Assembly (NCBI RefSeq): GCF_041435055.1
Contig: NZ_CP108002.1
Coordinates: 2,108,001-2,172,000 of the forward strand
Length of the DNA stretch: 64,000 nucleotides
Direction: 5' to 3'
Source: Streptomyces sp. NBC_00341
GTDB taxonomy: Bacteria > Actinomycetota > Actinomycetes > Streptomycetales > Streptomycetaceae
Part shown: piece after piece, positions 613-18,518 of the stretch
Layout: each line of letters opens with the position of its first letter
Position numbering within the stretch: the stretch's first letter is position 1
The notes under the pieces: model-generated
Told to the model about the DNA's origin: nothing
Databases searched by the model: none
Seen by the model: only the letters and a program-made list of their open reading frames with translations
Made by a program: the position numbers and the translations under genes

Positions 613-634
613 GAAGGGCCCCGCGCAGTGTTTT
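613..634. terminator. Left half of IS-split terminator plus 8-bp target duplication
   Basis: Bases 613-626 are the left arm GAAGGGCCCCGCGC of a hairpin whose right arm lies at 2478-2491 beyond the IS. Bases 627-634 (AGTGTTTT) are the left copy of the target duplication. Removing the IS and one duplication restores a perfect 14-bp stem with the 8-nt loop AGTGTTTT, between two convergent genes. Confidence 0.9.
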
Positions 635-2469
635 GACGCTGACTCTGTCGGGGATCTTGAGGATCCCCGGCGGGGCAGCATGATCAACGGGCATGCTCGA
701 CTCTGTCCAAGGACCAATGCAGTTGTCGAGGTGCCCGTTGTCGCTCCACGCCCGTTCTGGTGAGCAAGTCCCTTCTCTGACCGTGCAGATGGCGCGGGCG
801 AGCAATCCGGGTGGTACGACGGCGATGTGGGTGAGAGACCGCCTGGGCGGGCTGTGGCGTGACGAGGACTTCGCGGACTGGTATCCGCGTGACGGCCGCC
901 CCGGGCTCTCGCCCGCTCAGCTGGCCACCGTGTGTGTGCTGCAGTTCCTGCTCGGTCTGTCGGACCGGCAGGCCGCCGAGGCGGTTCGCTGCCGCATCGA
1001 TTTCAAGTACGCGCTGGCCATGGAGCTGAACGATCCCGGATTCCACCACAGCGTGCTGGGCGACTTCCGCGAGCGTCTCACCGAGGACGACCGCGCCGAC
1101 CGTCTCCTTGACCTCACGCTTGCGCGCCTGAAGGAGGCCGGTCTCGTGCGCGAGCGCACCACTCAGCGCACGGACTCCACCCACGTCCTGGCCGCGGTGC
1201 GCGACCTGACCCGGCTGGAACTGGTCACCGAGGCCGTCCGCGCCGCCCTGGAAGAGCTGGCCGGCACCGCTCCGCACCTGCTGGCCGACCTGGTAGACGA
1301 GGAGTGGGGGCGTCGTTACGGCCGCCCGGTCCGCCTGGGCAAGAACCCCACCCGCCCCAAGACCAGGATCCTCGCCACCGGTGGTGACGCCGTCCGGCTG
1401 CTGGAGCACGTCGCAGAGCATGCGGCGGATCGCCTGTCCGGGCCCCGGGCCCAGGCCCTGCGGCAGATCATGGTGCAGAACTACTACCGCGACGGGGCCG
1501 GCCGTCTGCGCTGGCGCACCGCCGATGACGGCGGGCTGCCGCCCTCAGCGGTCGCGGTCGTCTCGCCCTACGACCCGACGGCCCGTTACGCGCGCCGCGG
1601 ACACGTCACCCGTTGGAAAGGGTTCGTCGCGCATCTCACCGAGACCTGTGATCCTGAAGGCGTCAACGTGATCACGGATGTGGCCACCACCGACGCCACC
1701 GGCTACGACGCGAAGGCTCTGCCCGGTATCCACACCCGGCTGGGGCGTCGCGGGCTGCTGCCCGCCGAGCATCTGGTCGACGGCGGCTACACCTCCCTGG
1801 TCCATCTCGAACAGGCGGCCCGGGAACACCAGGTCACGGTCACCGGACCACTGCCGGTCAACACCACCCGCCAGAACCGCAGGAACAACGGCTTCGGCCG
1901 CGACGACTTCCACATCGACTTCGACCGCCGACAGGTCACCTGCCCGCAGGGCGAGACCAGCGCGGGATGGCACGGCCCCTACCCGACCTCCTCACCCACC
2001 GCAGCACCTCTGATCGTGGCACGGTTCACCAAGAGCCAGTGCCGTCCCTGCCCGGTCCGCACCCGCTGCACGACCACCGCCGACAGCGCCCGGAGCGTGG
2101 GCTTTCCCCCGCGAGAACTCCGTGACCTGCAACTCCGAGTCCGCGCCGAGCAGCAGACACCCGAATGGCAGGCCCGCTACGCGGTCCGCTCCGGAGTGGA
2201 AGGCACCATCAACGAGCTCGCCCACGGACACGGCATGCGCCGCTGTCGCTACCGGGGACAGCACAAAGCCCACTTACAGCACGTGTTCACAGCCATCGCC
2301 GCAAACATCGAGCGCCTCAGCCGGCGGCCGCCGACCGGAGAACCACCTCCGTCCCGGCCGCCGACCGCATTCCAGAACTACCTGGACCAGCACGGAATCA
2401 CCCGGCCGAGGTCTTGGCGGTCCGCCAGAGACTGAGCAGACCGCCAAGATCCCCGACAGAGTCAGCGTC
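635..2469 (+). mobile_element. IS1182-like insertion sequence, copy 1 (1,835 bp)
   Basis: A complete element with perfect 25-bp terminal inverted repeats at 635-659 and 2445-2469 (outer part GACGCTGACTCTGTC), one transposase gene, and 8-bp direct repeats AGTGTTTT immediately outside both ends (627-634, 2470-2477). It matches the second copy at 15258-17092 in length and, as far as I compared, in sequence, so transposition was recent. Just inside the left end GGGGATC and GATCCCC form a hairpin at 650-668. Near the right end a 9-bp stem (2413-2421 with 2440-2448) spans the transposase stop codon. Confidence 0.95.
693..2435 (+). CDS. IS1182-like transposase
   Basis: DDE transposase of 580 residues that mobilises the surrounding IS. 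The N-terminal part resembles the DUF772 domain ([12 protein letters not shown], then [12 protein letters not shown]). Likely catalytic acidic residues are in [14 protein letters not shown] and GVEGTINE. A Cys cluster ([10 protein letters not shown]) precedes the last acidic motif, as in IS1182-type enzymes. The ATG lies about 34 bp inside the left inverted repeat and the stop is 9 bp before the right repeat. The predicted protein is identical to that of the other copy, so both look intact. The family is assigned from motif recognition. Confidence 0.92.
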
Positions 2470-2491
2470 AGTGTTTTGCGCGGGGCCCTTC
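2470..2491. terminator. 8-bp target duplication plus right half of split terminator
   Basis: Bases 2470-2477 repeat AGTGTTTT. Bases 2478-2491 (GCGCGGGGCCCTTC) are the exact reverse complement of 613-626. They are now about 1.85 kb from their partner arm, so the original hairpin cannot form in a normal transcript. Confidence 0.9.
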
Positions 2492-11794: not shown

Positions 11795-12064
11795 GTGGAT
11801 GGGACGAGTAGCGTCGTACGCAGCCAGGAGCGACCCGGGGACGGTGGAAGCCCGGGGGCGAGCGCGTCGTGAAGATCACCCGGAGCCGTCGGAGGAAAGC
11901 TCTGGACCGTGGGCCCCGCCCACGTGCACAGGGCGAGTAGAACCGGCTTCGCACCCCTAATGAGGGGGCCACGGGCAGCCGCCCGGGGCCAAGGAGGGTG
12001 GTACCGCGGGAACCCGACCGGTTCTCGTCCCTCCGACGGAAGTGGAATACGTCCGCCGGAGGAA
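11795..12064 (+). promoter_or_regulatory. T-box riboswitch of ileS (translational type)
   Basis: Stem I begins near the GGGACGAGTA element (11801-11810) and has an apical GGTGGAAGCC. The likely specifier codon is ATC (Ile) at 11875-11877, followed by a purine. The T-box AGGGTGGTACCGCGG is at 11995-12009. GGAGGG (11993-11998) can pair with CCCTCC (12029-12034), presenting the UGGU bulge for the tRNA acceptor end. Alternatively CCTCCG (12030-12035) can pair with CGGAGG (12057-12062), which contains the ileS ribosome-binding site. No U-run terminator follows, so control is probably at translation: uncharged tRNA-Ile would free the ribosome-binding site. Confidence 0.92.
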
Positions 12065-12072
12065 GCCCGCAC

Positions 12073-15222
<3,150 letters not shown>

Positions 15223-15236
15223 CCACGCAGCACGCG

Positions 15237-15257
15237 AGGGCCCGGCCGGACACGTTC
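15237..15257. terminator. Left half of second IS-split terminator plus 9-bp target duplication
   Basis: Bases 15237-15248 (AGGGCCCGGCCG) pair perfectly with 17102-17113 on the far side of IS copy 2. Bases 15249-15257 (GACACGTTC) are the left target duplication. Without the IS this is a 12-bp stem, 13 with the closing G-C, between ileS and the convergent divIVA. Confidence 0.9.
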
Positions 15258-17092
15258 GACGCTGACTCTGTCGGGGATCTTGGCGGTCTGCTCAGTCTCT
15301 GGCGGACCGCCAAGACCTCGGCCGGGTGATTCCGTGCTGGTCCAGGTAGTTCTGGAATGCGGTCGGCGGCCGGGACGGAGGTGGTTCTCCGGTCGGCGGC
15401 CGCCGGCTGAGGCGCTCGATGTTTGCGGCGATGGCTGTGAACACGTGCTGTAAGTGGGCTTTGTGCTGTCCCCGGTAGCGACAGCGGCGCATGCCGTGTC
15501 CGTGGGCGAGCTCGTTGATGGTGCCTTCCACTCCGGAGCGGACCGCGTAGCGGGCCTGCCATTCGGGTGTCTGCTGCTCGGCGCGGACTCGGAGTTGCAG
15601 GTCACGGAGTTCTCGCGGGGGAAAGCCCACGCTCCGGGCGCTGTCGGCGGTGGTCGTGCAGCGGGTGCGGACCGGGCAGGGACGGCACTGGCTCTTGGTG
15701 AACCGTGCCACGATCAGAGGTGCTGCGGTGGGTGAGGAGGTCGGGTAGGGGCCGTGCCATCCCGCGCTGGTCTCGCCCTGCGGGCAGGTGACCTGTCGGC
15801 GGTCGAAGTCGATGTGGAAGTCGTCGCGGCCGAAGCCGTTGTTCCTGCGGTTCTGGCGGGTGGTGTTGACCGGCAGTGGTCCGGTGACCGTGACCTGGTG
15901 TTCCCGGGCCGCCTGTTCGAGATGGACCAGGGAGGTGTAGCCGCCGTCGACCAGATGCTCGGCGGGCAGCAGCCCGCGACGCCCCAGCCGGGTGTGGATA
16001 CCGGGCAGAGCCTTCGCGTCGTAGCCGGTGGCGTCGGTGGTGGCCACATCCGTGATCACGTTGACGCCTTCAGGATCACAGGTCTCGGTGAGATGCGCGA
16101 CGAACCCTTTCCAACGGGTGACGTGTCCGCGGCGCGCGTAACGGGCCGTCGGGTCGTAGGGCGAGACGACCGCGACCGCTGAGGGCGGCAGCCCGCCGTC
16201 ATCGGCGGTGCGCCAGCGCAGACGGCCGGCCCCGTCGCGGTAGTAGTTCTGCACCATGATCTGCCGCAGGGCCTGGGCCCGGGGCCCGGACAGGCGATCC
16301 GCCGCATGCTCTGCGACGTGCTCCAGCAGCCGGACGGCGTCACCACCGGTGGCGAGGATCCTGGTCTTGGGGCGGGTGGGGTTCTTGCCCAGGCGGACCG
16401 GGCGGCCGTAACGACGCCCCCACTCCTCGTCTACCAGGTCGGCCAGCAGGTGCGGAGCGGTGCCGGCCAGCTCTTCCAGGGCGGCGCGGACGGCCTCGGT
16501 GACCAGTTCCAGCCGGGTCAGGTCGCGCACCGCGGCCAGGACGTGGGTGGAGTCCGTGCGCTGAGTGGTGCGCTCGCGCACGAGACCGGCCTCCTTCAGG
16601 CGCGCAAGCGTGAGGTCAAGGAGACGGTCGGCGCGGTCGTCCTCGGTGAGACGCTCGCGGAAGTCGCCCAGCACGCTGTGGTGGAATCCGGGATCGTTCA
16701 GCTCCATGGCCAGCGCGTACTTGAAATCGATGCGGCAGCGAACCGCCTCGGCGGCCTGCCGGTCCGACAGACCGAGCAGGAACTGCAGCACACACACGGT
16801 GGCCAGCTGAGCGGGCGAGAGCCCGGGGCGGCCGTCACGCGGATACCAGTCCGCGAAGTCCTCGTCACGCCACAGCCCGCCCAGGCGGTCTCTCACCCAC
16901 ATCGCCGTCGTACCACCCGGATTGCTCGCCCGCGCCATCTGCACGGTCAGAGAAGGGACTTGCTCACCAGAACGGGCGTGGAGCGACAACGGGCACCTCG
17001 ACAACTGCATTGGTCCTTGGACAGAGTCGAGCATGCCCGTTGATCATGCTGCCCCGCCGGGGATCCTCAAGATCCCCGACAGAGTCAGCGTC
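15258..17092 (-). mobile_element. IS1182-like insertion sequence, copy 2 (1,835 bp)
   Basis: Same length, same 25-bp perfect terminal repeats (15258-15282 and 17068-17092) and same transposase as the copy at 635-2469, but inverted. It is flanked by a 9-bp direct repeat, GACACGTTC (15249-15257 and 17093-17101). Because each copy has its own target duplication, they inserted independently and are not the ends of one composite transposon. Confidence 0.95.
15292..17034 (-). CDS. IS1182-like transposase (second copy)
   Basis: A 580-residue protein with the same sequence as the transposase at 693-2435, including [14 protein letters not shown] and GVEGTINE. It is transcribed toward ileS, on the same strand as divIVA, so it could in principle receive read-through from the dcw cluster if the divIVA terminator leaks. 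No truncation or frameshift is seen. Confidence 0.92.
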
Positions 17093-17113
17093 GACACGTT
17101 CCGGCCGGGCCCT
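17093..17113. terminator. 9-bp target duplication plus right half of second split terminator
   Basis: GACACGTTC at 17093-17101 is followed by CGGCCGGGCCCT at 17102-17113, the reverse complement of 15237-15248. This is the second arm of the hairpin that once ended ileS transcription. Confidence 0.9.
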
Positions 17114-17139: not shown

Positions 17140-17285
17140 CGAACCTGGGGCTCCGCCCCAGACCCCGCGCCTCAAACGCCGGCGAGGCTGAGATTCCCGC
17201 TCAGCCAGCGAAATCAAGCCCCTCCGGCGATTGAGGAGCGGGGGTCCGGGGGCAGAGCCCCCGGGAGTAGGGGACGCCCCGCGCA
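17140..17285. repeat. Palindrome-rich intergenic module downstream of divIVA
   Basis: This non-coding stretch has short palindromes such as TGGGGCTCCGCCCCA, a CCTCAAACGCCGGCGAGGCT segment, its near-inverted partner around CCCCTCCGGCGATTGAGGA, and GGGGGCAGAGCCCCC. From memory, similar C/G-rich palindromic modules recur between convergent genes in many Streptomyces genomes, but I cannot count copies here. No gene is supported. Confidence 0.5.
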
Positions 17286-17291
17286 CGGCAA

Positions 17292-17329
17292 AGGGCCGGG
17301 CCCCGGGGAAAACCCCGGGGCCCGGCCCT
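17292..17329 (-). terminator. Strong hairpin terminator of divIVA
   Basis: A perfect 17-bp stem (17292-17308 with 17313-17329) with an AAAA loop lies 40 bp after the divIVA stop. It still insulates divIVA from IS copy 2 and ileS even though the ileS-side terminator was interrupted. Confidence 0.85.
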
Positions 17330-17369
17330 CAGCCTGCCGACGGCTACGCGCTCAGCGAGCGCGAACCGC

Positions 17370-18518
17370 TCAGTTGTCGTCCTCGTCGATCAGGAATCCG
17401 CGCATCGGCGAAGGCGCCTGCTGCATCGGCTGCGGCGCCTGCGGCCGCACCGGTGCCATCGGCTGGGTCATCGCCGGCGACATCTGCTGCTGGCCACCGT
17501 ACGAGGGCGCACTGCCCATGGACGGGCTGCCGCCCATCTGCGGGCCGCCGTGACCACCGTGGTTGCCGCCCATGGTGTGGCCCATGGCACCCGCACCGGC
17601 CGGAGCCAGCGAGGGCGACGGCGGCAGCGAAGCGGTCGCCGGGGTCCGCGGCGGAGCCAGCGAGTCGTCCGCCTGGGTCTCCAGCTGACGCAGCTGGCTC
17701 TCCAGGTAGGACTTCAGACGCGTCCGGTACTCGCGCTCGAAGCCACGCAGGTCCTCGACCTTGCGCTCAAGCGTCGCGCGGGCCGACTCCAGGGAGCCCA
17801 TCGCCACGCGGTGCTTCTCCTGCGCGTCCCGCTCCAGGGCGTCCGCCTTGGCACGGGCGTCGCGCTCCAGGCCCTCGGCACGGCTGCGCGCCTCGCCGAC
17901 GATCTTGTTGGCCTCGGAACGGGCCTCCGCGATCGCCTGGTCGGCGGTCTGCTGCGCCAGGGAGAGGACACGGGCGGCGCTGTCGCCGCCGGGGCCCTGC
18001 TGCTGCTGCATCTGCGGCGGCTGCTGCTGCTGCATCTGCTGCATCTGCTGCTGCTGGGGGTTGTGACCACCCATGGGGCCGCCCATCGGGCCACCCATGG
18101 GACCGCCCTGCATCGGGCCGGGGCCGTGCGGGCCCTGCGGACCGGGGCCGTGCGGACCCTGGGGTCCGTGGCCACTGGGACCGGCGGGCAGCTGCGGAGC
18201 GCCACCGGGCAGCTGGGGCGGACCCATCTGCGGAGGCTGCTGCTGCTGGACCGGCGGACCAGATATGGCGGCCGGCACCGGTGCGCCGGGCCGTTCCTGC
18301 TGCTCCGGCTTGCGCATGCCTTGCTGCTGCTGGTTCTGCGCGGCGGCACGCGTGGCGGCGGCCAGCTTGGCGCGCAGGTCCTCGTTCTCACGGAGCAGGC
18401 GGGTCAGCTCCGATTCGACCTCGTCGAGGAAGGCATCAACCTCGTCCTCGTCATAGCCTTCTCGGAGGCGGACCGTCGTGAACTGCTTGTTCCGCACGTC
18501 CTCGGGGGTCAGCGGCAT
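17370..18518 (-). CDS. divIVA: DivIVA/Wag31 polar growth protein
   Basis: A 382-residue coiled-coil protein that marks hyphal tips and directs apical wall growth in Streptomyces. The N-terminal membrane-curvature domain is LTPEDVRNKQFTTVRLREGY followed by DEDEVDAFLDEVESEL. A long Gln/Pro/Gly/Met-rich linker (roughly residues 75-185, with repeated GPHGPGPQ and GGPMGG units) separates it from a second long coiled coil (about 190-290). A disordered tail ends in FLIDEDDN. The linker is much longer than in Bacillus DivIVA, as is normal in this genus. It is the last gene of the dcw-linked series. Confidence 0.96.
   Translation of the reverse strand: MPLTPEDVRNKQFTTVRLREGYDEDEVDAFLDEVESELTRLLRENEDLRAKLAAATRAAAQNQQQQGMRKPEQQERPGAPVPAAISGPPVQQQQPPQMGPPQLPGGAPQLPAGPSGHGPQGPHGPGPQGPHGPGPMQGGPMGGPMGGPMGGHNPQQQQMQQMQQQQPPQMQQQQGPGGDSAARVLSLAQQTADQAIAEARSEANKIVGEARSRAEGLERDARAKADALERDAQEKHRVAMGSLESARATLERKVEDLRGFEREYRTRLKSYLESQLRQLETQADDSLAPPRTPATASLPPSPSLAPAGAGAMGHTMGGNHGGHGGPQMGGSPSMGSAPSYGGQQQMSPAMTQPMAPVRPQAPQPMQQAPSPMRGFLIDEDDN

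Follow-up and report, generated by a model that had tools for sequence, protein, structure and literature searches.

Insertion of an IS1182-type element into terminator hairpins of Streptomyces, with target duplications at the centre of the dyad and cuts aligned to a motif in the arms

The insertion sequence that occurs twice in the window, which is the whole 64,000-nucleotide stretch of DNA analysed here, inserts repeatedly into terminator hairpins and duplicates the centre of the hairpin. The earlier note had proposed such targeting from two insertions, and the collected insertions bear it out: the best hairpin dyad lay exactly at the centre of the target duplication in 26 of 30 sites, while among 37 insertions of sister elements, taken as controls, it came as close as 0.5 bp to the centre in none. 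We consider it fairly probable that the transposase reads a sequence motif in the two arms together with the pairing of the arms, and that the ends of the element join inside the two motifs, the spacing of which would set the duplication length.

Copy 2 is an IS1182-type element of 1835 bp, located at 15258..17092 on the reverse strand, with 25-bp terminal inverted repeats of the sequence GACGCTGACTCTGTCGGGGATCTTG. It interrupts the sequence AGGGCCCGGCCG-GACACGTTC-CGGCCGGGCCCT, the 9-bp centre of which is doubled. On the forward strand, the left arm AGGGCCCGGCCG (15237..15248) is followed by the left copy of the duplication GACACGTTC (15249..15257), and the right copy of the duplication (17093..17101) is followed by the right arm CGGCCGGGCCCT (17102..17113), all of which were read directly. 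The reconstructed stem is 12 bp long, and a G-C pair between the two outermost bases of the duplication would extend it to 13 bp, as had been described before. In the left arm, GGGCCC occupies the positions −11 to −6 from the cut. The split hairpin is the terminator of an isoleucyl-tRNA synthetase-like gene with the domains tRNA-synt_1 and Anticodon_1 (11998..15222, forward strand), which is presumably ileS, and the stop of this gene lies 14 bp before the start of the terminator. On the far side of the terminator lies a convergent DivIVA-domain gene (17370..18518, reverse strand).

The reconstructed empty site of copy 2 is supported by the relative G005, in which both 12-bp arms are intact and form an uninterrupted ileS terminator around GATACGCCC; this centre differs from GACACGTTC at three of the nine bases. 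The survey of the ileS locus covered 29 loci read among 46 relatives with a match, and a hairpin scoring at least 9 was present within 80 bases 3' of ileS in all 29. In the window itself, the interval from the split terminator to the DivIVA-domain gene (17140-17335) holds further GC-rich palindromes, as judged by eye, which are free of insertion sequences.

Copy 1 (635..2469, forward strand; transposase gene at 693-2435) is identical to copy 2 and lies in the opposite orientation; the 11 differences over the compared arms of 1859 bp all fall at 613-634, outside the element. It splits a terminator with the left arm GAAGGGCCCCGCGC (613..626) and the right arm GCGCGGGGCCCTTC (2478..2491), and the 8-bp duplication AGTGTTTT stands at 627..634 and at 2470..2477, all on the forward strand. 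The flanking genes are a thioredoxin-domain gene and a convergent dienelactone-hydrolase-family gene. As for the empty site of copy 1, the same terminator was found in none of the seven relatives' loci read. Two further identical copies lie in other hairpins of the genome, with the duplications GCGCAG (6 bp) and GCGGAAG (7 bp), and the four identical copies thus show duplications of 9, 8, 6 and 7 bp. The stems of the two window sites, which had been taken to be unrelated, are not: the left arms of both carry AGGGCCC at −6 to −12 in the same register, and GGGCCC occupies −11 to −6 from the cut in all eight arms of the four copies.

The transposase gene of copy 2 (15292..17034, reverse strand) encodes 580 amino acids. 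Its product matches the NCBIfam model NF033551 of the IS1182 family with 319 bits, above the cut-off of 270, and the 25-bp terminal inverted repeats of the element are perfect, both of which place it in this family. The domains DDE_Tnp_1_6 and DUF772 were both found above the gathering score. The AlphaFold2 model of the transposase has a mean pLDDT of 76; a Foldseek search with this predicted model, which examined it for an RNase H-like DDE fold, placed the Tn5 and ISCth4 transposases on top, with weak matches, none at E ≤ 0.001, and a sequence search for a solved homologue found none.

Related insertions were collected with a transposase search over 392 genomes of the genus, 102 of which had a match at E 1e-100 or better (own genome included), with a search of a genome collection, from which the best 80 of 202 loci were taken, and with a plasmid search that gave 47 records, four of which were opened. 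Further insertions were gathered by searching for the element tips. Among the 110 loci L022-L131, 13 without a pair of ends were left out. After repeats had been removed, the set that was read comprised 91 insertions carrying the TGACTCTGTCGGGG repeat. The elements fall into two tip types, where type A has the tip GGAYSC or GACGC and type B comprises all others, mostly AGCT. More distant elements with a TGTTGG repeat likewise carry A tips; the protein identity of this type is 44%, from two A-tip elements compared (L178 and L183). Pairs of TGTTGG-type ends were accepted only at a spacing of 1.7 to 1.9 kb, and by this rule L253, with ends about 4.1 kb apart and no duplication, and L256, L258 and L271 were not counted.

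Sites with A tips at both ends numbered 36. The analysis covered 30 of them, of which 11 have the repeat type of the window's element and 19 the TGTTGG type. Three sites (L056, L168 and L238) were left out because they have no exact duplication of at least 4 bp, as were three with GACCC tips (L189, L190 and L207), which have another, non-hairpin target; L110, L192 and L205 were kept despite one or two mismatches in the duplication. The hybrid locus L134 was placed in neither group of sites. At palindromic sites the outermost base of the tip is ambiguous, which shifts the duplication length by 2 and leaves the centre unchanged.

Several loci outside the 30 sites are worth describing. The short derivatives L258 and L271, with ends 1270 and 1031 bp apart and duplications of 12 and 9 bp, sit between GC-rich arms like those of the 30 sites, and L271 contains a third element end as well. 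At L256 (G175:C31:11300-12000), two inverted A-tip ends lie 67 bp apart between similar GCAGCCCCG arms, with no duplication. The A-tip loci L056 and L238 have GC-rich arms on both sides and no exact duplication, as would be left by recombination between copies or by decay. L190 and L207 (tip GACCC) have a 7-bp duplication outside any hairpin, immediately preceded in each case by GTTGTAGAA, and their element reads like a putative orfB of the IS3 type. In the genome of the window, outside the window itself, one TGTTGG-type A-tip element also occupies a hairpin, and its duplication of 11 bp is centred (L255, G000:C1:2752555-2755371). In G297, an IS1182-type element with the tip AGGACTTCG lies in apparent CCCGCC/GGCGGG hairpins, as judged by eye, with a centred duplication of only 2-3 bp (L181 and L182), and this element is perhaps a further variant of hairpin targeting.

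The target duplication ranged from 6 to 15 bp across the 30 A-tip sites, with lengths of 6 bp in five sites, 7 bp in four, 8, 9 and 10 bp in five each, 11 bp in three, and 13, 14 and 15 bp in one each. Four copies of one element in G088 made duplications of 6-10 bp. The dyad was the best one within 25 bp, and the sites at which it departed from exact centring were L024, L179, L183 and L275. Five of the 30 sites had been joined from contig ends because their flanks matched, a procedure that favours the centring rule, and without these five the exactly centred sites are 21 of 25. The dyad lay at most 0.5 bp from the duplication centre in 29 of the 30 sites, where L024 counts by virtue of a tie. 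When the empty sites were folded as RNA, the median z was −4.8 for the 30 A-tip sites compared to +0.3 for the 37 controls; z was above −2 in five of the 30 (L001, L002, L024, L110 and L275).

The earlier note had claimed that the duplication varies in length with the size of the loop. The variation holds, while the dependence on the loop does not. In the correlation that had been set beforehand as the test, loop size and duplication length were unrelated in the 27 sites (rho 0.03, p 0.89), and the rule was rejected under all stem definitions of 3, 4, 5 or 6 bp (rho −0.08 to 0.05, n 27 to 30). According to this rule, the enzyme would cut at both stem-loop junctions of a cruciform, and the duplication would equal the loop plus its closing pair; this fits the two window copies as first described, and the duplication equals the loop plus 2 in five of the 27 sites. 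It equals the loop in two of 27, and loop size predicts the duplication within 2 bp in nine of 27. The loopless palindromes L053, L276 and L192 have duplications of 6, 6 and 14 bp, and L002 has a duplication of 7 bp with a loop of 17. We therefore regard cutting by the loop rule as very improbable. The cut lies instead at a nearly fixed distance up the arm.

The arms carry a motif with the consensus RGGSCCC at about −11 to −5 from the cut, and the cuts fall 4-5 bp inside it. In the 60 arms of the 30 sites, C stands at −6 in 58, C at −7 in 55 and G at −9 in 49. When the arms are aligned on the cut, C at −6 holds 1.22 bits and C at −7 holds 1.03 bits, while no column exceeds 0.73 bits when they are aligned on the dyad or on the inner end of the stem. 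Both C at −6 and C at −7 are present in 90% of the 60 arms, compared to a mean of 14% for pseudo-cuts centred in 27 control hairpins, with 40% as the highest share in 2000 draws. When the duplication lengths were shuffled among the same dyads, the observed register was reached in 0 of 2000 shuffles; the seven best columns sum to 4.83 bits in the observed sites and to at most 3.96 bits in the shuffles. The claim that structure rather than sequence is recognised is thus not upheld, since the arms share a motif in a fixed register to the cut, those of both window copies included.

The position of the motif about the dyad correlates with the duplication length (rho 0.60, p 0.0005), with the motif itself derived from these 30 sites. 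The length predicted from the motif position agrees within 2 bp in 26 of 30 sites and exactly in 11 of 30. In single ends that had no part in defining the motif, some of which are two halves of one site, it was found with at most one mismatch at the allowed distance in 29 of 46, compared to nine of 153 B-type flanks (p 2e-15). What determines the duplication length thus seems to be how far apart the two arm motifs stand, rather than the loop. GGSCCC-like arms are frequent, by impression and not by count, among the native ileS terminators of the relatives; the motif may in part be the terminators' own, in which case the 27 control hairpins would under-represent it.

A near-random insertion, after which only insertions into terminators persist, would agree with the location of copies 1 and 2 between convergent genes, where an insertion is likely harmless. 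Such persistence leaves the exact centring in 26 of 30 sites and the register at the level of single bases unexplained, and the sister elements, which are mostly from the same genus, are hairpin-centred in 0 of 37 sites. We give this explanation hardly any weight.

At every position from −1 through −12 the arms are paired in 22-29 of the 30 sites, and at −13 this number falls to 13. The inner 4 bp are paired at three or more positions in 20 of 22 insertions compared to 51 of 604 motif-matched control occurrences, where pairs of motifs with at most two mismatches were taken and the control DNA, about 350 kb, was chosen without annotation, spans more than intergenic DNA and is probably mostly coding. 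The excess of pairing may partly reflect survivorship, as insertions in genes may be selected away. At L179 a motif pair is present, the score at the centre is only 6, and a better dyad lies 2.5 bp away; both L179 and L002 have a motif pair with one of four inner pairs, which shows that targeting does not strictly require a full hairpin. Recognition of structure alone was rejected as sufficient in view of the arm motif and of L179. Structure still seems to matter, and the targeting seems to use both sequence and inverted-repeat symmetry.

Recognition could also be linear, with two subunits on a flexible tether, each of which binds one RGGSCCC half-site in ordinary duplex DNA, and hairpins would then be hit only because inverted pairs of the motif occur in terminators. 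The register of the motif to the cut, the poor inner pairing of L179 and L002 and the GGSCCC-like arms seen (uncounted) in many native ileS terminators would suit this account. It is opposed by the inner pairing of at least three of four positions in the 20 of 22 insertions, with the reservation that the 51 of 604 control occurrences are not intergenic only, and by the large rotation of one half-site relative to the other that it would require, as duplications span 6-9 bp in the window's element and 6-10 bp in the G088 copies. Tolerance of such a rotation is unusual for a DDE transposase. We hold linear recognition, the main rival to our reading, to be possible and rather unlikely.

In the mechanism that we favour, namely reading of the arm motif together with arm pairing, a DDE transposase of the IS1182 family would target inverted-repeat terminators of Streptomyces and would read both arms through their pairing and through RGGSCCC, located at about −11 to −5 relative to each point of strand transfer. 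Each transposon end would be joined to a single strand at a point 4-5 bp inside the motif, which is about 12 bp along the arm as counted from the usual base of the stem, and the stretch of 6 to 15 bp between the two joins would be filled in and duplicated. The arm contacts would be made by the transposase itself, and the arms would be extruded as a cruciform at the time of cutting. An extruded cruciform is a plausible substrate, and its extrusion would explain how one enzyme tolerates spacings several base pairs apart.

The sister elements with B tips, from Streptomyces and relatives, share the TGACTCTGTCGGGG terminal repeat with the window's element and differ from it in their targets. The B-type sites number 78, of which 37 have an exact duplication of 4-5 bp; the duplicated sequence is CTNAG or CTAG in 29 of these 37, and in none is it centred on a hairpin. 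Counted in another way, 30 of the 78 sites are flanked on both sides by CTNAG, with the same middle base in 22, and seven by CTAG. Seven B-tip elements belong to the clade of the window's element, and the protein identity of their transposases to that of the window is 91-95%. In this clade of 18 tips, A- and B-tip elements are intermixed, with three changes by Fitch count; the tree was a quick one, made with MAFFT retree 1 and FastTree, in which the hybrid L134 was labelled A. No residue fully separates the 10 A-tip from the 7 B-tip transposases; the best positions (391-399 and 468) have exceptions on both sides. The transposases compared are 91-95% identical to the window's, with two A-tip ones at about 86%. 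At L134, on a plasmid (NZ_CP108868.1:85400-87832), one end has an A tip by a GC-rich half arm and the other a B tip with CTGAG, which looks like the outcome of recombination between two elements.

Control of the target by the tip is a lead that these sequence comparisons offer. In a combined reading, the transposase would grip the arms of an extruded cruciform via RGGSCCC, and the 4-6 bp tip would mainly dictate the target; the second part draws on the fact that elements mostly 91-95% identical switch target with their tip while no single residue separates the 17 transposases compared. We consider this combination doubtful.

Insertion into palindromes is known from other systems. IS1397 and ISKpn1 insert in the middle of the palindrome in repetitive extragenic palindromes, with one repeat family as the target; the intergenic insertion in mid-palindrome is alike, while the IS family is different. 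Within the IS1182 family, IS1272 and TnSha1 of staphylococci target inverted repeats of differing sequence, often terminators, and the authors propose recognition of a stem-loop or cruciform (Wan 2017, PMC5678879; Furi 2016, PMC4923244). The window's element resembles them in its family and in its inverted-repeat, terminator targets. According to PMC5678879, the hairpin is lost wholly or in part when IS1272 inserts and no duplication results, no sequence common to its targets was found, and three of 13 resident copies have no inverted-repeat target. In contrast, the window-type elements keep the arms and duplicate a centre of 6 to 15 bp (30 sites, with three further ones lacking an exact duplication), and their arms have sequence in common at a near-fixed distance from the cut (58 of 60 arms with C at −6 and 55 of 60 with C at −7). 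A replacement of the stem-loop of the IS1272 type, which would leave no duplication, is suggested by the common IS1182 family and the hairpin targets (PMC5678879, PMC4923244); it is contradicted by the retained arms and duplicated centre of the 30 analysed sites and by the same arms in the intact G005 ileS terminator, and we regard it as extremely improbable here.

Duplication of the loop is already drawn as a hypothetical outcome in pathway c of Figure 13 of Wan 2017 (PMC5678879). A review by Siguier et al. is cited in both papers as stating that some members of the IS1182 family target palindromes (PMC5678879, PMC4923244), and, according to PMC5678879, it gave no detailed data. Searches of the open-licence literature, where absence is weak evidence, brought up no description of this Streptomyces variant or of a centred duplication of variable length that keeps register with a motif in the arms. 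Hairpin targeting as such has been described before, for IS1272 and TnSha1, with neither a duplication nor a common target sequence (PMC5678879, PMC4923244). The present analysis adds the motif in the arms, the duplication of variable length and the distinction of two tip types.

Most DDE transposases make duplications of nearly fixed length, with the active sites held a fixed distance apart. One element that makes duplications of 6, 7, 8 and 9 bp, all centred and in register with the motif, suggests an unusual geometry of the target. With the A- and B-tip elements, the choice of target may have changed among close relatives. The insertions also suggest how an insertion sequence can spread where genes are densely packed: it lands in terminators, and in at least two cases here the terminator lies between convergent genes.
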